Part shown: positions 3,430-32,532 of the stretch, one piece after another
Position numbering within the stretch: the first letter of the stretch is position 1
How the letters are laid out: each line of letters opens with the position of its first letter
Source of the DNA: Planctomycetota bacterium
GTDB taxonomy: Bacteria > Planctomycetota > Planctomycetia > Pirellulales > Pirellulaceae
DNA: 48,124 nt
Assembly (NCBI GenBank): GCA_026692905.1
Contig: JAPLNL010000010.1
Span: forward strand, 1 to 48,124
Direction: 5' to 3'
Position numbers and translations under genes: made by a program
The notes under the pieces: model-generated
What the model was told of the DNA's origin: nothing
The model's input: the letters and a program-made list of their open reading frames with translations, nothing else
Databases searched by the model: none

Positions 3430-3993
3430 ATGAGCATATCAAGCAAAATCACCGGTACTGAATTCGACTCGATGGTCGATCGAGGTGCGTTTGACGGTCT
3501 TGGTCCACGCAAGATAGAACTGATTCGAGGGGAGTTGTGTTTTATGAATCCAGCTGGACCGGTTCACGATGACTACATTGACTATTTGACTCGCTGGTCG
3601 ACGGACAACACTGCGTCGAGCATTGCGAATATTCGCGTTCAATGCGGCTTTGTCTGCGATGACAATCGACCTGAACCAGATATCTTGTGGTTAAAGCCGC
3701 GTCGTTACGGCCGTACGCGTCCCACTGCCGCCGATGTGATGTTGTTGATTGAAGTTTCAGATAGCAGCTTGGCAAATGATCTGCGTGAGAAAGCCGATGT
3801 CTACGCCGAAAGTGGCGTCTCCGAGTATTGGGTGATTGACGTTCCTGCATCGCGAATCCATGTGATGACCAATAGCGATGGCAAGCACTACCGCAACATC
3901 GAAATCGTCGTACCACCGAATCCACTCTCTCCCAAGTGTCGCCCAGAAGCCATCCTCAATACGGCTGAGCTGTTTGAAGTGCGCGAAGAATAA
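3430..3993 (+). CDS. Uma2 family (DUF820) PD-(D/E)XK nuclease-fold protein
   Basis: This is a Uma2-family protein, abundant in Cyanobacteria and Planctomycetes; the fold resembles restriction nucleases but the function is unknown. Family landmarks are ELIRGE near the N terminus, PEPDILW (metal-binding Asp), LLIEVSDSSL (Glu), then a Lys in DLREKADVYAESGV and EYWVIDV. The start at 3430 is chosen because AAAGGA lies about eight bases upstream. An in-frame ATG at 3397 would add 11 residues. The stop is four bases before the next gene, suggesting co-transcription, although that gene encodes a secreted enzyme. Confidence 0.88.
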   Translation: MSISSKITGTEFDSMVDRGAFDGLGPRKIELIRGELCFMNPAGPVHDDYIDYLTRWSTDNTASSIANIRVQCGFVCDDNRPEPDILWLKPRRYGRTRPTAADVMLLIEVSDSSLANDLREKADVYAESGVSEYWVIDVPASRIHVMTNSDGKHYRNIEIVVPPNPLSPKCRPEAILNTAELFEVREE

Positions 3994-3997
3994 CCCA

Positions 3998-6229
3998 ATG
4001 AAACATCTGTTCCTAATAGCATTTGCTCTTTTTATTCCATTCGCAGGCTCTGCGGCAGCTAGCGAGGTCGCTCGAAAAGCCGCAGCCCTTCCGAAACTCC
4101 CCGACGCCGTTAGCGGAGATTGGCTGATCAAACGAGTATCGAGACCCGCCGGGGTTTTTTCGACCGATCGCCCAGGTGAAATCGCGATCGACAACGGCCT
4201 GCTTCGTCGTTCGTTTTTGGTTTCGCCCAACTTGGCCTGCGTCGAGCTAATGCACTTGCAAACGAACGAGTCGATGCTCCGAAGTGTTCGGCCGGAATGC
4301 CGCGTTACGCTCGATGGCCAAGAGTTCGATGTTGGCGGCCTCAAAGGACAGCCTGTCGACAACTTTCTGCGCCCCGAGTGGCATGCTTCGCTAACGAACG
4401 ACCCTGCCGCCTTTCAGCTTGCGGACTTCACCTCCGCCCCCATTCAAGCTCGATTCGCTTGGAAACCGCGACCGGAGTGGATGTCGACGAGCGCCAGTTG
4501 GCCACCCAAAGGAACCGAAGTTCAATTTCATTTCCAAGCTCCAAAGTCGCAAAGCGACGCCAAGCCATCTGCGGCAAATGGTGTTCGTATCGTGGTCCAC
4601 TACGAAATCTACGAGGGACTTCCGCTCCTTTGCAAATGGTTCACACTCGACAACGAATCAGGGCGATCGATCCGATTGAATCGTTTTACCAGTGAAATTC
4701 TCGCTTGTGTCGAAGCGTCGAGCCAAGTCGAAGATCTTGCCGACCCCTTTCATCCTAACCTTCACATTGAGACCAACTACACCACTTGCTCGATGCATGG
4801 AGCCAGCGCACAAGTCGATTCGGTCCATTGGATGGAGGATCCAACATACAAGACTCAAGTCAACTATCTGCTCAAGACACAATGCTTGCTCGAATGCCGA
4901 CCGCCTCAAGGCCCCGATGTCGACGTATCTAGCGGTACGACCTTCGAATCGTTTCGCACTTGGATTTTGGCCCGCGAGGATCGCGATGAAACTCGCAACA
5001 CGTTGGCTTTGGGGCGAATGTACCGTACGATTGCGCCATGGGTCACTGAAAACCCATTGATCCACCACGTTCGCAGCGCAGATCCGCCTGCTGTTCGCTT
5101 GGCCATCGATCAAGCCGCCGAGGTTGGGTTCGAATTGGTCATCATGACCTTCGGGAGCGGCTTCAATATGGAAAACGATTCTCCCGAATACTTAAAACGA
5201 ATTCGAGAGTTGGCTGACTACGCTCATTCCAAAGGGATCGCTTTGGGAGGCTACTCGCTCCTTGCAAGTCGATCGATCAACGCAAAGGATGACGTTGTCA
5301 ATCGAGAAACAGGCAAGCCAGGTGGCTTTGCAAGATTTGGGAACAGCCCATGCTTGGAGAGCGAATGGGGCCAAACTTACTTTGCGAAATTGGATCGGTT
5401 CTTCGAAGCGACAGGCTGCGATGTATTGGAACACGACGGTTCTTATCCCGGTGACACGTGCGCTTCGACGAACCACCCTGGACACCATGGCTACGAAGAC
5501 TCCCGCTGGCGGCAATGGGAACGGATCAACCGCTTCTACCAATCCTGTCGCAGCCAAGGAATCTATTTGAATGTTCCCGATTGGTATTTTTTGAATGGCT
5601 CCAACAAGATTGCAATGGGGTACCGCGAAACAAATTGGTCATTGCCTCGCGAGTCCCAGGAGATCATCGAACGCCAAAACATTTATGATGGCATCCGTTA
5701 CAAACTGCCCACGATGGGCTGGATGTTTGTACCCTTGACGGAGTATCAAGGAGGCGGCGCCGCAGCGACGATCGAACCTCTCAGTGAACATCTAGATCAC
5801 TACGAACATAGACTGCAGAACCTGTTGGGCGCGGGCGTGCAGGCTTGCTTTCGAGGTCCTCGGCTTTACGATACCGATGCAACAAAGACGATGGTAAAAC
5901 GCTGGGTCGATTTCTATAAGAGCCATCGCGCGATCCTCGATAGTAGCTTGTTGCCACTTCGCCGCGCCGACGGTCGCGACTGGGACGGTTGGATGCACGT
6001 CAATCCCGAGCTTGACACTCCTGCAATGGCCATGATCTACAATCCGCTGGACCATCCGATCACTCGTGAGATCACGTTTCCGCTCGTCTTCAGTGGCCTC
6101 ACGGAGAAAGCACACTGCAAAATCGAAGGGGCGAATCCCATTCCAATTCAACTCGATAGAAACGAAAAAGCCAAGGTCAAGCTAACGGTACCAGCCAAGG
6201 GCGCAACCTGGATTCAGTTTGCGAACTAG
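3998..6229 (+). CDS. Secreted alpha-galactosidase-like (clan GH-D type) glycoside hydrolase, tentative
   Basis: The 743-residue protein has a clear Sec signal peptide (MKHLFLIAFALFIPF...AAAS). The frame is open from 3878, but those 40 codons overlap the Uma2 gene and precede the signal peptide, so the ATG at 3998 is preferred. The first ~350 residues look like a beta-sandwich N-domain of the GH36/GH31-like kind, the middle like a TIM barrel (segments VGFELVIMTFGSGF, SKGIALGGYS, CDVLEHDGSYPGD), and the end like a small beta domain. CDVLEHDGS is a candidate catalytic strand. It probably acts on exported or environmental galactosides. Clan-level assignment is moderate; the catalytic residues and substrate are inference. 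Confidence 0.7.
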   Translation: MKHLFLIAFALFIPFAGSAAASEVARKAAALPKLPDAVSGDWLIKRVSRPAGVFSTDRPGEIAIDNGLLRRSFLVSPNLACVELMHLQTNESMLRSVRPECRVTLDGQEFDVGGLKGQPVDNFLRPEWHASLTNDPAAFQLADFTSAPIQARFAWKPRPEWMSTSASWPPKGTEVQFHFQAPKSQSDAKPSAANGVRIVVHYEIYEGLPLLCKWFTLDNESGRSIRLNRFTSEILACVEASSQVEDLADPFHPNLHIETNYTTCSMHGASAQVDSVHWMEDPTYKTQVNYLLKTQCLLECRPPQGPDVDVSSGTTFESFRTWILAREDRDETRNTLALGRMYRTIAPWVTENPLIHHVRSADPPAVRLAIDQAAEVGFELVIMTFGSGFNMENDSPEYLKRIRELADYAHSKGIALGGYSLLASRSINAKDDVVNRETGKPGGFARFGNSPCLESEWGQTYFAKLDRFFEATGCDVLEHDGSYPGDTCASTNHPGHHGYEDSRWRQWERINRFYQSCRSQGIYLNVPDWYFLNGSNKIAMGYRETNWSLPRESQEIIERQNIYDGIRYKLPTMGWMFVPLTEYQGGGAAATIEPLSEHLDHYEHRLQNLLGAGVQACFRGPRLYDTDATKTMVKRWVDFYKSHRAILDSSLLPLRRADGRDWDGWMHVNPELDTPAMAMIYNPLDHPITREITFPLVFSGLTEKAHCKIEGANPIPIQLDRNEKAKVKLTVPAKGATWIQFAN

Positions 6230-6559
6230 CCGATCTGGTTGCCGCGAGCTAGGTGACCATGAAACACACCAAACACACGAAAAGAAAACAGGATGATAAG
6301 TAGAGGAGAACAAAACGTACATTGTTCCCACTTGGTGGTATTCAAGTCACCGTATGATCTTATGGATATTGTCTTTCGTGTGGTTCGTGTCTTTCGTGGT
6401 TAACGCAGCCTCGCTTGATGGACGCGGACGTGCGGAGGATCGCGGAGTTTATCGCGAGTTTTTATAAATCCGTTCAAGCTCAATGAACTTGATCCAATAT
6501 ACTTTTGGCACCTGATGTTCTGCCAAGTTTGTTCCTGTTTTCATTTCGATCGTTTCATC
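6230..6559. other. Intergenic region with a degenerate short repeat
   Basis: This 330-bp gap contains no convincing gene. At 6371-6402 there is an internally repetitive string (GTCTTTCGTG then GTGTCTTTCGTGG) of a type often scattered in bacterial intergenic DNA. A related AAACACACCAAACACACGA string is at about 6259-6279 on the other strand sense. The remainder is probably the leader and promoter of the exported nuclease-like gene; no clear promoter boxes were found. Confidence 0.4.
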
Positions 6560-7513
6560 ATGAGAGTACTTGCAAGCCGTTCCGCTCTTTTCAAACTGTT
6601 GATTCTGACGGTAATACTTCAATTGGCTGCAAGTTCTGCAAACGCACAAGAAGCCCAAACTAAAAAAGCGAGCGGCCAAAAATCGCGAGAGGAGGAGGTC
6701 CGCTTAGGCTCGCAAACGGCCAAAGGGGGCTTTCAAAACGAAGACGAGATTCGGGATAAGTTCAACGATTGGCAAAAGGACTCCGACGCTCGCAAATGGT
6801 TAGAGGCAATGAACTACCGCCTCAACGAGATTGAGCAGGTCAAGGCGGCTAAGCCACATGGCGAGAAAGCCGATGTGGAGGTTCGAGTCAAAACGAAGTC
6901 CGGCGAAAAAGTTCATGGCATATCCATCAAACTAGTCAGCAACCCGCAAGGGTTTAATCAAATTGATAAGCGATGGCTCAAGACTTATGCAGATATGTGG
7001 AAGATGCCAGACGACGTCCACTCGGCATTGAAGCTGTTTGTGGGAGAGACTGCACCGATCAATCCAGGGCGAGACACACGTCGCATGTTTTTGAACGAGT
7101 TGCCTGAGTCGCAGCAGCAGGCGGTCGTCCGCTTTTTCAGCTCTCATCGCGGGCAGATCGTTTCGGATTTGTTTGCGGGCGATGGCGAGCACGCGGCTGG
7201 CTGGATCATGGTAACGCTCAAGACGACTGATAATGCGGCCGAAGGCAAGAAATCTCTTGCCGCCGACAAGAAAAGGTTGAGCACGCCCTCCATGAATTCA
7301 ACTCAGGCCGCGGAAAAGCCGCAATGGATGCTATGTACGACAGTAGATGCAGTTGCGTTTTTTGGCGATGGCGAAGTTGAGATCACGCCCGCCGGGAGCT
7401 TGAAGATTGGCCGAATCACCATGCAGCGCAAAGGGGGCGACAATGGCCGCGAGTCAGCCAATATGCTGCAATTCAAAATCAACCCAACCGAACTTTTCGA
7501 GTTGCGCAAGTGA
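6560..7513 (+). CDS. Exported homologue of type II restriction endonuclease HinP1I
   Basis: The first 29 residues form a classical Sec signal peptide: basic start, hydrophobic core LLILTVILQLAAS, cleavage motif ANA-QE. From about residue 48 the protein follows HinP1I (cleaves G^CGC) almost to its end, as I recall that sequence: LGSxTAKxGFxNE, a Leu-rich NEIxxVKA segment, LVSNxxGFNQIDKxW, RRMFxxE, and QRKGGDNGRExANMLQFK, ending NPTELFEL. The HinP1I catalytic set is D62, Q81 and K83. Here Asp105 and Lys124 align with D62 and K83, but Ser122 replaces Q81. There is a ~27-residue insertion at about 224-252. Length is 317 against 247 for HinP1I, the excess being leader, linker and insertion. No methyltransferase is nearby. 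An upstream ATG (6515) would only lengthen the leader. Homology is confident; activity and location are inferred. Confidence 0.85.
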   Translation: MRVLASRSALFKLLILTVILQLAASSANAQEAQTKKASGQKSREEEVRLGSQTAKGGFQNEDEIRDKFNDWQKDSDARKWLEAMNYRLNEIEQVKAAKPHGEKADVEVRVKTKSGEKVHGISIKLVSNPQGFNQIDKRWLKTYADMWKMPDDVHSALKLFVGETAPINPGRDTRRMFLNELPESQQQAVVRFFSSHRGQIVSDLFAGDGEHAAGWIMVTLKTTDNAAEGKKSLAADKKRLSTPSMNSTQAAEKPQWMLCTTVDAVAFFGDGEVEITPAGSLKIGRITMQRKGGDNGRESANMLQFKINPTELFELRK

Positions 7514-22047: not shown

Positions 22048-25000
22048 CTAGGTCATGTTGGCAACTTGAACAGCTGTACCACTGCTAACCCCGTTGGAGG
22101 TGATCACTGCAGTCAAGCTGCCGGTGATGGTCGTCTTGGTGGAGAACGTTACCGTGAGTCGTGTTCCGGTAGCCGCGGTGACGGTTCCTATTGCGCCGTT
22201 GTTGAACACGATCGTGTTACTGGAAAGCGTAGTACTAAAACCGAAACCATTGATCACGATTGTGGCAGCGGTACGGGCAAGATTCGTCGTGCTAGCGGTC
22301 ACCATTGGCTTAACCGCAGCAACTTGGATCGCGGTTGGGTTGCTGGCACCGTTGGTTGTTACGATCGCTGTCAGGTTGCCTGCACTTGGACGCGAGGAGA
22401 AGGTCACCGTCAAGGCGGTGGATGTTGCGTTGGTGACGGTACCCACTGCACCATTGTTGAAAACTACGCGATTGTTCAATGCGGTTGTATCGAAGCCTGT
22501 ACCAGCGATGGTAACCGTGCTTGAGTCTGCGGCCAAATTAGACGTGGAAACCGTAACCGTCGGAGCTAGAGTTGCAACTTGAACTGCATCACCGCTGCTC
22601 AAACTATTCGTTGTGACAACGGCGGTCAGGTTTCCTGCTGTTGGCGGAGTCGTAATGGATACGGTCAATTGTGTCGCAGTCGCAGCGGTGACAATTCCGA
22701 CTGCTCCATTGTTAAATACGACCGTATTGTTTCCAGGCGTTGTACTGAATCCGAACCCGCGAATCGTGAGAGTGGTTGTGGACAAAGTCATTGCCGCTGT
22801 GCTTGAGGTCACTGAAGGGATAACGTTTGCAACCTGGACAGCACTGCCGCTCGAAACGGAGTTGGTTGTTACCACGGCGGTTAGGCTTCCGACCGTTGTT
22901 GGTTTCGTATCGATTCGTACGGTAAGCGATGTGGCAGTAGCCGCGGTTACCGTTCCGACGGCACCGTTGTTGAAGACGACAGTATTCCTTGCAAAATTCG
23001 TATCAAACCCAACTCCATTAATCACCACACTGGCGGCACCTGCAGAAAGACTTGCCGTGCTTGATGTAACGATAGGGCTGATTCTAGCCACCTGAACAGC
23101 GGCCCCGCTTGATGCACCGTTGACGGTAACAACCGCAGTTAAGTTGCCAGCCACGACCGGTCTCGTGGAGAACGTCACCGTCAAAGAAGTGGAAGTTGCA
23201 CTTGTAACCGTACCCATACCACTGCTGAACACTACCGTATTACGCGCGAGTGTTGTATCGAAGCCCGAACCCGCGATTGTGACTGTTGTTGCCGTAATCG
23301 TTTGACTTGTGGTACTCAGCGTTACCACTGGAGCGATGGTAGCCACCTGCACCGGCGTTTCCGAACTAATGCCGTTGGTGGTGACTACCGCATTTAGGTT
23401 ACCAGCGGAAGCTCGCGTGGAGAACGTTACCGTCAACGCAGTAGCCGTCGCGGAAGTTACCGTGCCGATTGCACCGTTATTGAAAACAACGGTATTGTTT
23501 GCTGCCGTCGTATCAAATCGCGTTCCGGCAATAACCAACGTGGTTGCGGTCAATGCGAGGCTTGCGGTGCCAGCGGTTACCGTAGGACGAACGCCACCTA
23601 CCTGCACCGGAGATCCGCTACTTACCGAATTCGTCGTCACAACCGCTGTTAGATTTCCCAACGAGGTGGGTCTTGTTGTGAACGAGACCGAAAGCTGAGT
23701 GGCCGTTGCTGCGGTGATACGTCCAACAGCTCCTAGATTGAAGGTGATGGCGTTATTGGCTGCAGTCGCGCTAAAGCCAAAACCGGCGATGGTGATGGCA
23801 TCCTGTGTCGCGGTCACGATCGCTGTGCTGCTGGTGATGGTCGGAACCACGGTGGCAATTTGAATCGCAGAACCATTGCTCACGCTGTTGGTCGCTACTT
23901 GAGCCGTCAAGTTCCCAACAGAGGTCGGCTTGGTGACAAAGGTTACTGTCAGGCTTGTACTTGTCGCAGTGGAAACAGTTCCGGTGGCACCGTTGCTCAA
24001 GGTCACAACGTTTCGAGTGGCAGTTGTGTCAAAACCAAATCCATTGATCGTGATTGAGGACGCGTTGGGCGAAATACTTGTCGTGCTGCTGGTGATAACG
24101 GGTACCACATTCGCAACTTGAACTGCCGCACCATTCGTCACGCTATTGGTCGTAACTTGAGCCGTCAAACTTCCGGCTGCAGGCTTCGTAGTAAACGAAA
24201 CCGAGAGGGAAGTTGCAGTCGCCGAGGTTACCGTGCCGACTGCGCCGCTGCTAAATACTACGGAATTATTTGCAGCGTTCGTGTCGAAGCCATCACCTGC
24301 GATGGTTATGGTCGATACATCACCACCTTGGTTGGATGAACCGCTTGTAACCACAGGCCGAACGGTTGCAACTTGTACTGCTGTACCGCTCGACATTGAA
24401 TTGTTTACAACTGTCGCAGTTAAATTCCCTAGGGAAGTCGGGCTCGTGTCGATTCTCACCGTAAGCGTAGTCGCAGTGGCCGCTGTTACCGTTCCGACAG
24501 CACCGTTGTTAAACGTCACGGTGTTGTTCAAAGCAGTGGTATCGAACGCGAATCCATTGATAGTAATACTCGTTGCATTGCTCGCTAGCGTCGCCGTGTT
24601 GAGAGTCACACTTGGCAGTATGCTAGCGACTTGCACTGGTGAGCCACTCGATTTGGTATTTGTCGTGACCACTGCCGTTATATTTCCGACACTGGTAGGT
24701 TTAGTACCGAGCGTTACGGTAAGAGTCGTCGCCGTTGCAGCAGAAACCGTGCCGGCTGCGCCATTGCTTAACGTGACAGTGTTGTTGCCTGCCGTCGTGT
24801 CGAAGCCGATGCCCGTTATTGTTAGTGTGCTTTCAGAAGCGGACCGGTTTGTTGTGGTGGCGGTCACAACGGGTGTTACCGAAGCGACTTGCACTGCCGT
24901 ACCGCTTAGAGCACCACTTGAAGTGACGATTGCGGTGAGGACTCCAGCCTTTGGTTTTGTTGAGAACGTAACGGTTAGCGAAGTCGCGGTTGCTGCCGTA

Positions 25001-28000
25001 ACAGTTCCGATCGCCCCACTGCTAAACTTAACGAGGTTATTCGCAATCGTGGTACTGAAGTTCGTTCCTGCAATCGTGACGGTCGAGGCATCGGCAGCTT
25101 GAGTCGCGGAAGTGTTTAAAGTAACCGTCGGCGCTGTTACATTAGCTATTAGTTGTGCAACTTGAACGCCAGCTTCGCTTAATCGAGTCTTGGTCGTAAC
25201 GCGTGCGGTCAGACTGCCGACGACTGTTGCCCTCGTGGTTAGATTGAGTGTAAGTGAGGTAGTCGTAGCAGCGGTCACCGCACCGATTGCACCACCGCTG
25301 AGCGCAACGGTGTTTTCGGATAGAACAGTACTGAAACCGAACCCATTGATGACGAGACTTGTTCCATTGAGTGCCAGACCGATAGTACTCGTTGTAACCA
25401 CGGGATTGATGACTGCGACCTGCACTGCAGTTCCGCTGCTGACACCATTCGTGGTCACGACCGCAGTAAGATTACCTGCGGTTGGTTTTGTCGAAATGGA
25501 AACGGTGAGGGCGGTCGAAGTTGCATTGGTTACCGTTCCAATTGCACCATTGCTGAACACGACTGTATTGTTCGCTAGGGTAGTGCTAAAGCCGGTGCCC
25601 GCAATGGTCAGCGAGGTAAGACTTGCTAACAATTCCGTTGTGCCGATCGTTACCGTTGGCTTGAGCGAGGCAACTTGAACAGCGGTTCCACTGCTAACTC
25701 CAGCTCGAGTGACAATCGCCGTGAGATTGCCGGCCGGAAGCACTCCGGAGAAGGTAACGGTCAAGGCAGTTGCTGTTGCAGCGGTTACGGTGCCAGTGAC
25801 ATCATTATTGAACGCTACAGTGTTGTTGCCGGGGGTCGCAGAGTCAAAGCCAAACCCGTTGATGGTCAACGTCGCAGCAGTAAGCGCTAAGTTGGCTGTA
25901 CTACTTGTCACGACAGGAACGACCTTTGCAACCGCCAGTGCGCTGCCGCTGGTCACCGAATTGGTAGTAACAACTGCCGTTAAATTGCCGAGCGAAGTTG
26001 GCCTCGTTGTAAATCGGACCGTGAGCGAAGTTGCGGTCGCACTGGTGACGTTGCCAACTGCACCCAGATTAAATGAAACGGTATTGTTGGCTAAGACCGT
26101 ATCAAAACCGAAACCGTTGATGGTGACATTTTCTGAGTTGAAAGCCAGATTGGAGACGCTGCTGGTCACAACAGGCTTGATGGTTGCTACTTGAACAGCT
26201 GTTCCACTGCTGACTCCTTGGGTGACCACGATGGCGGTTAGGTTGCCTGCCTTTGGACGTGTCGAGAGTGATACAGTTAGCGCTGTGGTTGTTGCGTTTG
26301 TCACAGTTCCAACGGCACCGCTGCTCAAGGTGACTAAGTTATTGCCTGCTGTCGTGTTAAAGCCAAAGCCATTGATGGTTAACGTCGTCTCGTCGCCACC
26401 CCGGTTGGCCGTACTGCTGGTGATCACACCAATCATGTTGGCGACTTGTACGGAAGATGCACTGGCAACCGAGTTTGTGGTCACGGTTGCGGTCAGGCTT
26501 CCTATCGAGGTAGGCTTGGTGCTGAACGCCACGGTAAGCCGAGTTGCCGTGGCATTGGTTACAGCTCCAATGGCGCCATTATTGAATGCGACTACATTCC
26601 GGGAAGCGATAGCGTCGAACCCGATACCATTGATCTCAAGGGTCGACGAATCGATTCCGACATTAGCAGTGCTAGCGGTGACCAATGGAACTGTGGATGC
26701 AACCTGGACCGCGGTGCCGCTGGAAATGGAGTTGGTCGTGACTTGGGCTGTTAAGCTACCCGCTGCTGGCTTCTTGCCGTCAGCAAAGGTTACGGTAAGC
26801 AATGTGGCGGTTGCTGCTGTTACGGTTCCTTCAGCACCACTGTTAAAGACAACGGTGTTATTAGCAAGTATCGTGTCAAATCCAAAACCGGCGATGGTCA
26901 CTGTAGTGGCATTTGCGTTCATACTCGCCGTGCTACTAGTGATGATAGGCTTGACCGTGGCAACTTGAACTGACGAGCCACTGCTCAACGTATTGGTGGC
27001 AACCGATGCCCTGAGGTTGCCCGCAGTTGGCTTGGTGCCAAATGTCACCGTGAGAGAGGTTGTTGAGGCGGCTGTGACGGTGCCAGTACCGCTGCTCAGT
27101 GTCACGACATTGTTTGCGGGGGTGGCGGAATCGAATCCAAAGCCATTGATTGTCATCGTCGTATCGTTGACGCCGGCGTTGGCGGTGCTGCTCGTAATCA
27201 CAGGGATGATCGTTGCGACTTGCAGGCTTGTACCACTCGAAATGGAGTTCGTCGTTACGGATGCTGTCAAACTTCCAACGGATGTTGGTTTGGTCGTATA
27301 GGTTACCGTAAGACGCGTGGCCGTCGCTGTCGTGACGCTTCCTTCTGCTCCATTGTTGAATGTCACGACGTTTCGAGATGCGGTTGTATCAAATCCAAAG
27401 CCATTTATTTCGATGGTGGACGCGCTAATTCCGAGGTTTGCCGTACTACTGGTGACAACGGGGATCACGGATGCGATCTGAATCGCAGTGCCACTGGAGA
27501 CGGTGTTGCTGGTGACGATAGCGGTCAGATTACCAACGCTAGGTTGCTTGGCGTCAGCAAAGGTAACCGTCAGCTGAGTCGTGGTGGCAGCCGTGACGGT
27601 ACCCTCGGCACCGTTGCTGAGCACGACTGTGTTGTTTGCCAAAACCGTGTCGAAGCCGAAGCCGGCAATCGTAACCGTAGCAGCGTTGGCTGCTAAAGTG
27701 GTCGAAGCCGATGTAATCACGGGGGCGACCTTCGCGACTAGAACTGCAGAACCGCTAGCCGCTCCGTTTGTGGTTACGATCGCGGTAAGACCTCCTGCCG
27801 AAGTAGGTTTGGTGTCAAAGGTTACGGTCAAAGCGGTGGGAGTTGCATCGGTAACGGTCCCAACGGCTCCGTTATTGAATTCGACTAGATTGTTAGCCTC
27901 GACTGGATCAAAGCCGGAGCCATTGATCACAAGAGTTGTCGCATTGGCCGAGAGATTGAGCGATGAGTTCGCAACGACGACCGGGACCACGGTGGCAACC

Positions 28001-31000
28001 TGAGGTGTCGTCCCACTCGCTACGCCATTGGTGCGAGTGGTGACGGTCAGGCTACCGCCAGTACGCGGCTTGGTTGTGAAAGCGACAGTCAATGTAGTCG
28101 CGGTTGAGGCAGATACGGTTCCGATTGCGTCGTTGTTAAACTCCACGGTATTGCGGGACGGGGTTAGATCAAAACCGAACCCGTTAATCACGAGGCTTGA
28201 AGCATCCGCTGCAAGATTGGCTGTGTTTACCGTGGCCACCGGAGTGACGGTAGCGACTTGGACTTCTCCACCACTGCTATGACTGCTTGTTGTAACGATA
28301 GCCGTCAAGCTACCAGCCGTTTCTGGCTTTTTGTTAGTAGTGAAAGTCACTGTCAGTTCGGTGGCCGTAGCGGCCGTGACTGTCCCCTCAGCACCGTTGT
28401 TGAATACGACGGTATTATCGCTTGTCGTTGTACTGAAGCCAAATCCAGCGATGATTACGGTGCCTGAGGTTGCCGCCAAACCAGTTGTAATGTTGGTGAC
28501 CGAGGGTTTGACCGTTGCAACCTGAACCGCAGATCCGCTCGCATTTCCACCCGTAGTCACAATGGCTGTTAGGCTACCAACACCAATCGGCTTGGTCGTA
28601 AACGAGACCGTGAGTGAAGTCGCTGTTGCGGAATCAACAGTACCAACAGCTCCGTTGTTGAACACGACTGTGTTGTCCGTTGCCGTAGAGCTGAAGCCGA
28701 AGCCTCGAATAATGATAGAACCGGAACTGGCCCCGAGTGATTCGGTACTCAATGTCACTGCAGGAATCACATCGGCAACTTGAGCGCTTACGCTAGCACG
28801 TGCATTGGTTGTGACAGTTGCATTCAGTGCACCGACCGATGTGGCATTGGTTGTGAAGGTAACAGACAATGTAGTCGCGGTCGAGGAGGTTACGGTGCCA
28901 ACCGCTCCATTGTTGAAGGAAACGATGTTCTCCGAGGCGTTGGTGCTAAATCCAAATCCATTGATGGTTAGCGTCGCTGTGTTCGCAGCCAATGAAGCTG
29001 TACTACTTGTGATTACCGGAATGAGAGTAGCAACTTGAACCGGAGTTCCGCTACTGACTCCATTGGTCGAAACCACCGCAGTGATTGCACCCACGCTAGT
29101 TGGCTGTGTAGAAAGTGTCACCGTCAACGAAGTTGCTGTAGACGCGCTGACTGATCCAACAGCTCCATTGCTAAAGGTAACGCTGTTGTTGCCAGCCGTC
29201 GTATCAAAACCCGATCCCGTTATCGTCAATTCCGTTTCCGTTATGCCAAGATTCGTTGTGACCGCAGCCAGAATCGGTGCAATCTTCGCAACTTGAACCG
29301 CAGCACCACTACCGATACCGTTCGTGGTGACGAACGCGTTCATATTGCCGCCCGCGGTCGGCGCGGTATCAATATCTACTGTCAAACTCGTCCCCGTCGC
29401 GGCAGAGACAGTACCAATCGCTCCGTTCTCAAACAAGACGATGTTGTTTGCTGGCGTCACAGAGTCAAATCCCAATCCGTAAATGGTCAAGGTTGCGGCG
29501 TTGATTCCAAGCGTGTAGCTCGCGTTCGGCAGAATCAATGGGATCACCGATGCAACTTGAACATTGCTGGCAACGCCAGCGATTCCGTTTGACGTCACCG
29601 TCGCGGTCAAGCTTCCAGCGGCTTTGGGTTTTTTAGAGAAGAGTACAGTGATGGACGTTGCGCTGGCACTGGAAACGGTTCCTTCTGCATCATTGTTGAA
29701 AGTGACTGTATTGCCCAGCGAAGTGGATGCGAAACCAAATCCACTTATGGTCACGCTGGTCGCATCGGGAGATAGGTTCGAAATGCGACTGGTGATCACT
29801 GGTGCTACCGTTGCGACTTGAATTGCCGAGTTGCTGCTCACCCCGTTGGATGTCACCAGTGCGGTAAGGATACCTGCCGAAGTTGGTTTTTTATTTGCAA
29901 GGAACGCCACGGTCAACTCCGTGGCTGTAGCTGCTGTTACGACGCCTTCGGCACCGTTATTGAAAACCACCGTGTTGTTCGCTACAGTCGTGCTGAAGCC
30001 ACGACCCTGGATGGTAATGGTATTTGCCGTCGCCGCAAGACTCGCCGTGCTGCTCGAAATCACCGGCCTAACGGTGCCGACACGCACATTTGAGCCATTG
30101 CTGATTCCATTGGTCGTTACCGTGGCATTAAGGTTGCCGGCAGAGGGTTGGGAAGTCAGTGAAACCGTCAAAGTTGTCGCCGTAGCAGCACTCACAGTTC
30201 CCGCCGCCCCAGAGTCGAAAACAATCGCATTGTTCGCAAAGGTCGTATCAAAACCGATTCCCACAACTGTCACCGTCGATGCATCTGCAGCAACACGTGA
30301 GGCGGTGTTGGCTAAGACCACTGGCGCCACGGATGCGACCGTCGCGTTGGAATTGCTGCTCAGTGTGTTGGTGGTAACGGTGGCTTGAAGCAATCCAGCC
30401 TTGGGTGGCTTGGTGGTCAACGTGACCTTTAGTGAGGTCGGTGTCGCTTCGGCTACCGTGCCCACCGCGCCTCCCACCAACGCCACAGAATTGTTCAATA
30501 GAGTCGTATCAAACCCATATCCCGTTATGATGACGAAACTAGCATTGACGGGAACTATGTTTCCAGCGTTGGACGTCACCACCGGCGTAATGGTGGCTAC
30601 CTGTACTGCCGAGCCGCCGCTAATGCTGCTTACTGAAATCGATGCCGTCAAGTCCCCAGCCGTCACTGGTTTCGTCGAATAGGTAACCGTGATCGAAGTC
30701 GGCGTTGCAGCCGTGACTGAGCCAACGGCCGAGTTATCAAAGGTCACTACATTGTTCGCCAGGACCGGACTAAAACCGAAACCATTAATAACAAGAGTGG
30801 ATTGATCCGCACCGCGATTTGTAGTTGAACTGGTAATGAGGGGCGTTATTCGTTTGATCTGAACCGCAGAGCCGCTTCCGATTCCACTACTGGTTACAAC
30901 TGCGGTCAGCGGCCCCGCTGTCGCTGGCCTTGCCGAAAAAGTTACCGTCAGCGATGTATTGTCGCCGCTAGAAACAGTTCCAACAGCTCCATTATTGAAC

Positions 31001-32532
31001 ACGACTGTATTGTTGCCTGGGACCGTAGCAAACCCGAACCCATTGATGACTACGGTGCCCACATTTGCCGCCATATCCACCGTGCTAGCAGTAATCACGG
31101 GCATGACAGTGGCCACCTGAACACTCGAACTCGCTGAACTGTTGGTGGTCACAGTCGCTGTTAGGCTTCCGGCTGCCGTCGGCTTGACGTCAAAGTCGAC
31201 GGTGATCGATGTCGGGCTAGCAGAGACTACGGTTCCGGTCGCATCGTTATTGAAGACAACGGTGTTGTTCAATGCGGTTGAGTCAAATCCAAAGCCATTA
31301 ATAACGACAGAGGTTGCGTTGGCCGCTACATTGATCGTGCGAATCGTTACGACAGGCGTGACCGTACGGACCTGCGCTAGTGCACCGGCAACACCATTGG
31401 TAGTTACGGTCGCGTTCAACACGCCGGCGGATGTTGGTTTCGTCGAGAAAGCAACAGTAAGTCTCGTGGCGGTCGCTAACGTCACTGTACCAACTGCACC
31501 ATTATTGAATGCAACCGTATTGTTTCCAGCAATCGTATCAAAGCCAAAACCGTCAATGGTCATCGTCGATGCGTTGGCCGCTAAATTGGTCGTAGCTACC
31601 GTTGCTACGGGCCTGACCGTCGCAACTTGAACGGCACCAGAACTACTGACACCGTTTGTTCGTACAATCGCAAGTAAATCGCCAGCTACCTTCGGCGGTG
31701 TCGTCAGGCTAACTGTCAGCGACGTTGCTGTCGCATTAGTGACTACGCCAACAGCTTTGCCATCGAAATCGATGATGTTATCGGCTGCAGTCGTGCTGAA
31801 CCCGAAGCCGTTGATGGTCATCGTCGTGGCGTTGGCATCTAAGGTCCCGGAACTAGATGTCACGACTGGGACCACCGTAGCTACTCGAACATTAGCGCCG
31901 CTGCTAACACTATTGGTGACGACTTGTACGGATATAGGACCAGCCGCTGTCGGTGGGGTCGTTATCGACACAGTGAGTCGGGTCGAGGTCGCTGCTGTTG
32001 TCGTTCCAGCGGCCCCATTCGTAAAACTGACGACGTTATTGGCAAACTGCGTGTCAAAACCTGTTCCAAAAATAAAAATCGAAGAAGCATTCGCTGACAA
32101 CGCGTCTGTGCTGGCCGTTACGGTTGGGACGACCGTCGCAACTTGAACCGGCGATCCGCTATCCTCCGTCAAAGTGCTGACGACAGCAGTTAAGACTCCT
32201 GCTTCACTCGGGGGAGTTGTAAATTCGACCGTCAATTCCGAGTCGGTCGCGCTGATAACCGTTCCGACACCGTCATTGAAATCGACGGTATTATTCCCAA
32301 CGATCGGATCGAACCCGGACCCATGGATTACAATGGCCGGCACGTCCTGAAAGACACTTGTGGTGGTCAAATCTACCACCACAGTTAGCAAATCTCGTTC
32401 TTCCAACGATTCAAAGGGGACTCTTCTTGCGACCCGAGTTCGCTTGCGATCCGCCCGACGATGAGTTTCACGATCTGCCCCAAACCACGAAAGCACATTT
32501 AGGCGGGACCAGAAAGATGGGTTCTTAGCCAT
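22048..32532 (-). CDS. Giant 3494-residue repeat protein with about 40 IPT/TIG-like domains
   Basis: After a short basic leader, the motif FESLEERDLLT occurs at residues ~40-50. Such LExLExRxLL motifs recur near the N terminus of very large planctomycete surface or secreted proteins. The remainder is about 40 tandem units of ~86 residues. Each follows the pattern V(V/I)TSSTxNLxxxxxTxTINGFGFDTT..NNTVVFNxGAxGTV..ATxTxLTV.F..KPT.xGxLTAxVTTNxxSSGxxVQVAxVxP. This matches IPT/TIG immunoglobulin-like folds (xIxGxGF, NxVxF). Cys and Trp are nearly absent from the repeats. There is no classical hydrophobic signal peptide and no C-terminal anchor or cell-wall sorting signal. The protein ends at the end of a repeat. 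It is probably a surface stalk or adhesin; export route and partner are unknown. Confidence 0.92.
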   Translation of the reverse strand: MAKNPSFWSRLNVLSWFGADRETHRRADRKRTRVARRVPFESLEERDLLTVVVDLTTTSVFQDVPAIVIHGSGFDPIVGNNTVDFNDGVGTVISATDSELTVEFTTPPSEAGVLTAVVSTLTEDSGSPVQVATVVPTVTASTDALSANASSIFIFGTGFDTQFANNVVSFTNGAAGTTTAATSTRLTVSITTPPTAAGPISVQVVTNSVSSGANVRVATVVPVVTSSSGTLDANATTMTINGFGFSTTAADNIIDFDGKAVGVVTNATATSLTVSLTTPPKVAGDLLAIVRTNGVSSSGAVQVATVRPVATVATTNLAANASTMTIDGFGFDTIAGNNTVAFNNGAVGTVTLATATRLTVAFSTKPTSAGVLNATVTTNGVAGALAQVRTVTPVVTIRTINVAANATSVVINGFGFDSTALNNTVVFNNDATGTVVSASPTSITVDFDVKPTAAGSLTATVTTNSSASSSVQVATVMPVITASTVDMAANVGTVVINGFGFATVPGNNTVVFNNGAVGTVSSGDNTSLTVTFSARPATAGPLTAVVTSSGIGSGSAVQIKRITPLITSSTTNRGADQSTLVINGFGFSPVLANNVVTFDNSAVGSVTAATPTSITVTYSTKPVTAGDLTASISVSSISGGSAVQVATITPVVTSNAGNIVPVNASFVIITGYGFDTTLLNNSVALVGGAVGTVAEATPTSLKVTLTTKPPKAGLLQATVTTNTLSSNSNATVASVAPVVLANTASRVAADASTVTVVGIGFDTTFANNAIVFDSGAAGTVSAATATTLTVSLTSQPSAGNLNATVTTNGISNGSNVRVGTVRPVISSSTASLAATANTITIQGRGFSTTVANNTVVFNNGAEGVVTAATATELTVAFLANKKPTSAGILTALVTSNGVSSNSAIQVATVAPVITSRISNLSPDATSVTISGFGFASTSLGNTVTFNNDAEGTVSSASATSITVLFSKKPKAAGSLTATVTSNGIAGVASNVQVASVIPLILPNASYTLGINAATLTIYGLGFDSVTPANNIVLFENGAIGTVSAATGTSLTVDIDTAPTAGGNMNAFVTTNGIGSGAAVQVAKIAPILAAVTTNLGITETELTITGSGFDTTAGNNSVTFSNGAVGSVSASTATSLTVTLSTQPTSVGAITAVVSTNGVSSGTPVQVATLIPVITSSTASLAANTATLTINGFGFSTNASENIVSFNNGAVGTVTSSTATTLSVTFTTNATSVGALNATVTTNARASVSAQVADVIPAVTLSTESLGASSGSIIIRGFGFSSTATDNTVVFNNGAVGTVDSATATSLTVSFTTKPIGVGSLTAIVTTGGNASGSAVQVATVKPSVTNITTGLAATSGTVIIAGFGFSTTTSDNTVVFNNGAEGTVTAATATELTVTFTTNKKPETAGSLTAIVTTSSHSSGGEVQVATVTPVATVNTANLAADASSLVINGFGFDLTPSRNTVEFNNDAIGTVSASTATTLTVAFTTKPRTGGSLTVTTRTNGVASGTTPQVATVVPVVVANSSLNLSANATTLVINGSGFDPVEANNLVEFNNGAVGTVTDATPTALTVTFDTKPTSAGGLTAIVTTNGAASGSAVLVAKVAPVITSASTTLAANAATVTIAGFGFDTVLANNTVVLSNGAEGTVTAATTTQLTVTFADAKQPSVGNLTAIVTSNTVSSGTAIQIASVIPVVTSSTANLGISASTIEINGFGFDTTASRNVVTFNNGAEGSVTTATATRLTVTYTTKPTSVGSLTASVTTNSISSGTSLQVATIIPVITSSTANAGVNDTTMTINGFGFDSATPANNVVTLSSGTGTVTAASTTSLTVTFGTKPTAGNLRASVATNTLSSGSSVQVATVKPIITSSTASMNANATTVTIAGFGFDTILANNTVVFNSGAEGTVTAATATLLTVTFADGKKPAAGSLTAQVTTNSISSGTAVQVASTVPLVTASTANVGIDSSTLEINGIGFDAIASRNVVAFNNGAIGAVTNATATRLTVAFSTKPTSIGSLTATVTTNSVASASSVQVANMIGVITSSTANRGGDETTLTINGFGFNTTAGNNLVTLSSGAVGTVTNATTTALTVSLSTRPKAGNLTAIVVTQGVSSGTAVQVATIKPVVTSSVSNLAFNSENVTINGFGFDTVLANNTVSFNLGAVGNVTSATATSLTVRFTTRPTSLGNLTAVVTTNSVTSGSALAVAKVVPVVTSSTANLALTAATLTINGFGFDSATPGNNTVAFNNDVTGTVTAATATALTVTFSGVLPAGNLTAIVTRAGVSSGTAVQVASLKPTVTIGTTELLASLTSLTIAGTGFSTTLANNTVVFSNGAIGTVTNATSTALTVSISTKPTAGNLTAVVTTNGVSSGTAVQVAVINPVVTTSTIGLALNGTSLVINGFGFSTVLSENTVALSGGAIGAVTAATTTSLTLNLTTRATVVGSLTARVTTKTRLSEAGVQVAQLIANVTAPTVTLNTSATQAADASTVTIAGTNFSTTIANNLVKFSSGAIGTVTAATATSLTVTFSTKPKAGVLTAIVTSSGALSGTAVQVASVTPVVTATTTNRSASESTLTITGIGFDTTAGNNTVTLSNGAAGTVSAATATTLTVTLGTKPTSVGNITAVVTTNTKSSGSPVQVASILPSVTLNTATLASNATSITINGFAFDTTALNNTVTFNNGAVGTVTAATATTLTVRIDTSPTSLGNLTATVVNNSMSSGTAVQVATVRPVVTSGSSNQGGDVSTITIAGDGFDTNAANNSVVFSSGAVGTVTSATATSLSVSFTTKPAAGSLTAQVTTNSVTNGAAVQVANVVPVITSSTTSISPNASSITINGFGFDTTATRNVVTLSNGATGTVSTATSTSLTVTFVTKPTSVGNLTAQVATNSVSNGSAIQIATVVPTITSSTAIVTATQDAITIAGFGFSATAANNAITFNLGAVGRITAATATQLSVSFTTRPTSLGNLTAVVTTNSVSSGSPVQVGGVRPTVTAGTASLALTATTLVIAGTRFDTTAANNTVVFNNGAIGTVTSATATALTVTFSTRASAGNLNAVVTTNGISSETPVQVATIAPVVTLSTTSQTITATTVTIAGSGFDTTLARNTVVFSSGMGTVTSATSTSLTVTFSTRPVVAGNLTAVVTVNGASSGAAVQVARISPIVTSSTASLSAGAASVVINGVGFDTNFARNTVVFNNGAVGTVTAATATSLTVRIDTKPTTVGSLTAVVTTNSVSSGSAVQVANVIPSVTSSTAAMTLSTTTLTIRGFGFSTTPGNNTVVFNNGAVGIVTAATATQLTVSITTPPTAGNLTAVVTTNSLSSGDAVQVATLAPTVTVSTSNLAADSSTVTIAGTGFDTTALNNRVVFNNGAVGTVTNATSTALTVTFSSRPSAGNLTAIVTTNGASNPTAIQVAAVKPMVTASTTNLARTAATIVINGFGFSTTLSSNTIVFNNGAIGTVTAATGTRLTVTFSTKTTITGSLTAVITSNGVSSGTAVQVANMT
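22051..32380 (-). repeat. About 40 tandem ~258-bp coding repeats
   Basis: Counting the conserved (I/V)xGxGF core gives 40 units with a regular spacing of ~86 codons. The amino-acid pattern is strongly kept, but synonymous positions vary widely between neighbours, so the DNA is not a simple recent tandem array. Several units have the variant VxLSN/VTLS in place of VVFNN. Two carry an extra residue (DSATPANN and similar). Confidence 0.85.

Follow-up and report, generated by a model that had tools for sequence, protein, structure and literature searches.

The textbook example of a toxic enzyme restrained by a partner methyltransferase is the type II restriction enzyme. MspI is a monomeric type II restriction endonuclease whose recognition site, CCGG, differs from that of HinP1I. 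The window, that is, the whole stretch of 48,124 nucleotides analysed here, encodes a protein of the same family and the same fold as R.HinP1I (PDB 1YNM, 2FKC; PF11463), a type II restriction endonuclease specific for GCGC. Its identity to MspI (PDB 1SA3) is 15%. In comparison with R.HinP1I, the window protein has an additional predicted signal peptide, a linker, and an insertion near residues 227-254. It has Ser instead of Gln81 and Asp instead of Arg168, and it has no partner methyltransferase. Secreted bacterial nucleases (NUC, SNc, HNH, and endonuclease types), as presented in the main text of PMC11495043, are similar to the window protein in their proposed workplace and in the lack of a methyltransferase, but their domain names are unrelated and the word "restriction" appears 0 times in that main text. 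Among the matches listed, no secreted HinP1I-type protein was described in open-access titles and abstract openings, which is weak evidence for novelty.

The gene and its parts are as follows.

6560..7513, + strand: gene for the putatively exported HinP1I-type endonuclease, 317 aa, stop included (Pfam PF11463, 7.3e-62; PDB 1ynm, 5.3e-65)
6560..6646, + strand: predicted signal peptide, residues 1-29, with predicted cleavage after ANA, followed by Q30 (simple rules)
6647..6697, + strand: polar linker, residues 30-46, preceding the HinP1I match (low model confidence for residues 29-40)
6698..7504, + strand: HinP1I-like endonuclease domain, residues 47-315
6872..6931, + strand: active-site strands with Asp105 (HinP1I Asp62), Glu107 (Asn64), Ser122 (Gln81), and Lys124 (Lys83), by alignment
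7238..7321, + strand: insertion of ~28 residues (227-254) relative to HinP1I, seen as an alignment gap (pLDDT <50 for 224-250)
7427..7450, + strand: conserved RKGGDNGR block, residues 290-297, common to HinP1I, by alignment

The first-pass annotation claimed a homology to HinP1I over nearly the full length of the protein, and the homology was confirmed. The match to the PF11463 profile (7.3e-62) is significant, with a score of 209 bits against the cut-off of 25. In the phmmer comparison with HinP1I (1ynm), residues 47-315 were matched with an E-value of 5.3e-65, with 109 identities over 241 aligned residues. The predicted fold is the HinP1I fold. By the tests run, the window protein is a member of the HinP1I endonuclease family (PF11463). 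A chance or partial match was rejected from the E-values and from the same layout in relatives. The open frame is exactly 6560-7513 (+) with 317 aa, as annotated. A second in-frame ATG is present 45 bp upstream of the start at 6560 (ORF 6515-7513), and the ATG of the relatives L001 and L002 corresponds to position 6560. Because relatives show the same arrangement, we rejected an artefact of the 5' end caused by a frameshift or a fusion. No promoter-like site was found. No NCBIfam family was assigned to the window protein, to L001, or to one cytoplasmic-type relative, and the PADLOC type II restriction model matches the window protein at 5e-80. The search of the phage collection gave no match, nor did the viral contigs with the patterns used. 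Three plasmid records matched, all from Mollicutes and 36-41% identical. The origin as a phage or plasmid gene was rejected after these searches.

Residues 1-29 had been annotated as a signal peptide. Signal peptides were scored here by simple rules (basic start, hydrophobic core, and small-X-small motif), not by SignalP, and by these rules the assignment holds. Two K/R and no D/E are present ahead of the core, the best 12-residue Kyte-Doolittle mean is 2.68, and the predicted cleavage lies between ANA and QE. Among the 29 exported-type rows of the alignment, the 12-residue hydrophobic mean is at least 2.0 in 28, and the remaining row, L204, is truncated at the end of its contig. The small-X-small motif followed by Q was matched in 26 of 29, although this rule is a simple pattern whose placement is doubtful in a few rows (e.g., L199, L203, L205, and L220). 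None of the 66 cytoplasmic-type rows shows a signal-type N-terminus. Their highest hydrophobic mean is 0.61, and nine of them have at least 12 residues ahead of the domain. The signal and linker diverge faster than the domain; the identities are 49% versus 80% between the window protein and L001, and 39% versus 76% between the window protein and L002. L003:7986-8849 and L004:7986-8849 encode three cysteines (CSPC...C) after the signal, unlike other exported members.

In the scan of genome contigs for relatives, 80 of 83 loci were kept. The hydrophobic N-terminal extension was observed in five of the 80: L001 to L003 from planctomycetes, L004 from the planctomycete Kuenenia, and L072 from Acidobacteria. 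Searches of genomes with the window protein gave matches in 4 of 392 genomes of the phylum sample, 4 of 241 of the family, 14 of 397 of the class sample, and 14 of 297 of the Acidobacteria sample; these samples overlap. A survey of planctomycetes for a signal-bearing family, as proposed in the first-pass annotation, did reveal such a family. The gene is present in 18 planctomycete genomes, 16 of the exported type (the window's own genome included), which are part of one branch, and two of the cytoplasmic type (G175 and G182). Of the 14 genomes from Acidobacteria, 13 have the exported type and one has the cytoplasmic type (G1198, L224). The distribution of the gene is patchy, since no other genome of the same genus carries it in the family search (241 genomes).

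In the maximum likelihood tree of 95 domain sequences, the 29 exported rows were separated from the 66 cytoplasmic-type rows (HinP1I included) with the branch support of 100/97, and all 200 bootstrap trees (100%) contained this branch. The input sequences had been stripped of the signal and of most of the linker, and the tree is unrooted and does not give the order of the two states. Within the exported branch, where some forks are weak, members from planctomycetes and Acidobacteria are interleaved, suggesting possible transfer of the exported gene between the two phyla. Six of 72 cytoplasmic-type proteins (at least 400 residues) were left out of the alignment, and 12 loci (partial, broken, or exported) and proteins shorter than 230 residues were left out of the tree. 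Long fused proteins were trimmed to the last 265 residues for the tree. G175 and G182 are not in the tree under those names, but L070, whose gene-start sequence is the same as that of G175, is included. Domain dN/dS values for five pairs were 0.08, 0.10, 0.14, 0.11, and 0.15, with high dS in the first two. The domain in the exported branch is under purifying selection, and the possibility of a pseudogene was rejected on these values. Apparent fusions of C5 methyltransferase and HinP1I in one frame, 484-592 aa in length, were observed at L010, L013, L022, L024, L046, L069, and L074. The records of these fusion proteins are Campylobacterota-type, and the endonuclease part is truncated or disrupted in L069 and L074.

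The lack of a cognate methyltransferase was another claim of the first-pass annotation. Within 4 kb of the 80 relative loci, phmmer detected a C5-type methyltransferase in 43 and an N4-type in 25, 68 in total. HinP1I-type endonucleases are thus paired with two unrelated kinds of methyltransferases, C5 or N4-type PF01555 (e.g., L007, L011, L036, and L042), and four N4-type neighbours were confirmed to be PF01555. At the five exported loci (L001 to L004 and L072), neither a C5 nor an N4-type methyltransferase was found within 4 kb. Seven other loci also have neither type within 4 kb (L006, L062, L064, L068, L075, L078, and L080). In six of the seven, the gene is at a contig edge, fragmented, or beside a sequence gap; L064 adjoins genes that, judged by reading, resemble a type III methyltransferase and a helicase. 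The 61 cognate methyltransferases used as queries are those of the 68 proteins that are shorter than 400 residues, so that fused methyltransferase-HinP1I proteins were avoided. They matched at only one of 28 distinct exported loci (G893), where the flanks ranged from none on one side (contig ends) up to 10 kb, and were ~1.5 kb for Acidobacteria, with L072 longer. The same queries matched 70 of 75 non-exported loci, a figure that contains self-matches because the queries came from those loci.

Neither PF00145 (0 matches) nor PF01555 (0 matches) was found in the window's own genome, which is 96% complete, although the contig may be incomplete. In control genomes, PF00145 and PF01555 were detected in 10 and 11 of 14, respectively. 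Both families are also absent from G459 and G460. Adenine methyltransferases cannot protect GCGC, since this site contains no adenine. The claim therefore stands both beside the gene and elsewhere in the genome, where a GCGC methyltransferase was looked for and no C5 or N4-type match was obtained. By the tests run, the window protein does not belong to a restriction-modification system in its own genome.

Other carriers are more varied. PF00145 is absent from 8 of 16 planctomycete carriers and 5 of 13 Acidobacteria carriers, and the other 16 of the 29 carrier genomes encode at least one PF00145 enzyme, either on another contig or on the same contig at a distance of 0.8 Mb (G1209) or 2.9-3.2 Mb (G307). 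Full-length PF00145 enzymes of carriers are at most 46% identical to cognate C5 enzymes (one 59-residue fragment is 64% identical), while nearest neighbours among the cognate C5 enzymes are at least 51% identical. Judging from the sequences, some of these unlinked enzymes may methylate GCGC. In 10 planctomycete carriers, there is an unlinked N4-type enzyme 60-64% identical to the neighbour of the cytoplasmic-type gene at L058. One example is L178:1429-2616 (G307:C1:7072858-7074045), and the enzyme is absent from the window's own genome. In G893, it is located ~1.4 kb from the exported gene, and this case was counted against self-protection by compartment. At an E-value of 1e-50, 344 of the 397 class-sample genomes have the N4-type enzyme, comprising 9 of 14 carriers and 335 of 383 non-carriers (Fisher p 0.027, in the direction of absence in carriers). 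Its near class-wide occurrence and its tendency to be absent from carriers indicate that, judged by association, it is no partner of the exported gene. In genomes that have it, it might modify GCGC.

A GCGC enzyme active in the cytoplasm without protection should be lethal to the cell. In the window's own genome, 1060 GCGC sites were counted in 360,928 sampled bases, corresponding to ~17,500 per genome. The observed/expected ratio of GCGC is 0.64 in this genome, 0.71 in a non-carrier of the same genus (G467), 0.54 in a carrier (G307), and 0.49 in a non-carrier (G024). GCGC is the lowest or the second-lowest 4-base palindrome in all four sampled genomes (G000, G467, G307, and G024). Avoidance of GCGC as a sign of self-cutting was rejected, as it is not specific to carriers among these four genomes.

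The neighbouring genes in the window include the following.

1325-2902: alpha-amylase-domain protein
3878-6229: 783-aa protein with no Pfam hit
downstream of the HinP1I-type gene, opposite strand: glucuronyl-esterase-like hydrolase and sulfatase

The gene had been described as lying among exported hydrolases. The downstream glucuronyl-esterase-like and sulfatase genes agree with this description of the window, but the description does not extend to the branch, where neighbours vary. Contexts differ between carriers and are shared mostly by close relatives, so the context is uninformative on the role. A conserved partner gene was rejected because no neighbour is common to the branch within the stretches compared. 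A pair of PSCyt/DUF1549-DUF1553 and DUF1501 genes, whose Pfam names were taken from L207 alone, adjoins the gene in G459, G460, and G584 and is ~2.8 kb away in G307. Farther along the window, 22048-32532 (-) is an open frame of 3494 aa with repeated IPT/TIG domains (PF01833), probably encoding a giant surface protein.

It is likely, with a probability of about 0.74, that the window protein is a Sec-exported HinP1I-type nuclease that cuts double-stranded DNA outside the cytoplasm, and that the compartment, not methylation, protects self DNA. We infer its export, activity, and specificity. The HinP1I-type PD-(D/E)XK endonuclease would leave by the Sec route, and signal peptidase would remove the signal. 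The mature enzyme would fold in the periplasm or extracellularly and would cut double-stranded DNA there, the probable site being GCGC or one closely related to it. With the activity confined outside the cytoplasm, the protective methyltransferase kept by cytoplasmic relatives would not be needed.

Asp62, Gln81, and Lys83 presumably have roles in the catalysis of HinP1I. In the exported branch, Gln81 is replaced by Ser in 29 of 29 rows, and the window protein accordingly differs from HinP1I at this residue. Arg168 is found in 58 of 65 cytoplasmic-type rows but in none of the 29 exported rows, 22 of which have Asp instead. As both residues are replaced throughout the branch, the activity or the specificity may have changed. 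These replacements favour a protein that is exported but has lost restriction cleavage, binding DNA in the periplasm or the biofilm matrix or acting on unusual DNA structures. We consider such a loss unlikely, because Asp62 and Lys83 are retained in 29 of 29 exported rows and the domain dN/dS is as low as 0.08-0.15. Gln93 and Lys96 of HinP1I are also retained in 29 of 29, and Gln221, Arg222, Lys223, and Asp226 in all 27 exported rows that reach those positions. Ser at position 81 is also seen in 8 of 65 cytoplasmic-type rows, and thus Gln81 is not strictly defining. A methyltransferase is present within 4 kb at all seven such loci checked (L007, L040, L043, L050, L063, L065, and L070), and Ser81 therefore does not necessarily indicate an inactive enzyme. 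Glu at position 64 as a metal ligand substituting for Gln81 was considered and dropped, since 6 of 29 rows have Val and one has Gln; Val at this position occurs in Acidobacteria members. In AvaII, Gln is described as able to occupy the acidic place of the active-site motif (PMC7337904).

Export itself could be questioned if translation starts inside or after the hydrophobic stretch. Two TTG codons are present within this stretch of the window gene, and in 9 of 29 exported rows at least one in-frame GTG, TTG, or ATG follows the predicted cleavage site. The protein would then be a cytoplasmic restriction enzyme, or one could be protected by unlinked or undetected modification, for which the unlinked C5 or N4-type enzymes of many carriers are candidates. 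A downstream start in all homologues, the case raised in the first-pass annotation against export, was not seen: 20 of the 29 rows, among them the window gene and the contig-cut L204, have no ATG, GTG, or TTG between the predicted site and the domain. The hydrophobic N-terminal pattern is kept in 28 of 29 rows despite the faster divergence of this region than the domain, and no C5 or N4-type match was obtained in the window's own genome, G459, or G460. We regard a cytoplasmic enzyme as quite improbable. An uncleaved hydrophobic segment that anchors the enzyme in the inner membrane appears very improbable. In favour of an anchor, the structure model shows residues 6-37 as a single helix at low confidence, but small-X-small followed by Q is located near the end of the segment in 26 of 29 rows, a few of them doubtfully placed.

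For the Sec-exported nuclease, the fold and the signal point to DNA cutting outside the cytoplasm as the mechanism, while its purpose we infer. The most likely uses are the fragmentation of periplasmic DNA as food (phosphate and nucleosides) and a barrier to incoming DNA, which are not firmly ranked. For feeding, it can be cited that the enlarged periplasm of planctomycetes takes up dextran and GFP (PMC5394234) and that secreted nucleases were found in 61% of activated-sludge genomes (PMC11495043). For the barrier, the window's own genome encodes a ComEC-type competence domain. As noted in PMC3145789, restriction enzymes do not normally act on the single strands that transformation brings into the cytoplasm, and restriction enzymes located outside the cell may restrain transformation. 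In the periplasm, an enzyme would encounter the transforming DNA at a stage when both strands are still paired. On its own, a four-base cutter seems poorly suited to feeding but fairly well suited to a barrier. The more specific proposal of methylation-free restriction, in which a periplasmic site-specific endonuclease of planctomycetes and acidobacteria cuts incoming double-stranded DNA before the inner membrane and the compartment marks self, is tentative and rather doubtful.

These results point to a branch of HinP1I proteins, present in the two phyla of planctomycetes and Acidobacteria, that are exported and have no partner, and also suggest that restriction-type DNA cutting has moved outside the cytoplasm. 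The exported HinP1I genes are likely to be misread, as a defence survey with the PADLOC model could count them as cytoplasmic restriction. The signal-bearing, partnerless branch would show another escape from the dependence on a methyltransferase. It makes testable the idea of sequence-specific restriction outside the cytoplasm, which may act as a transformation barrier or as a feeding enzyme.
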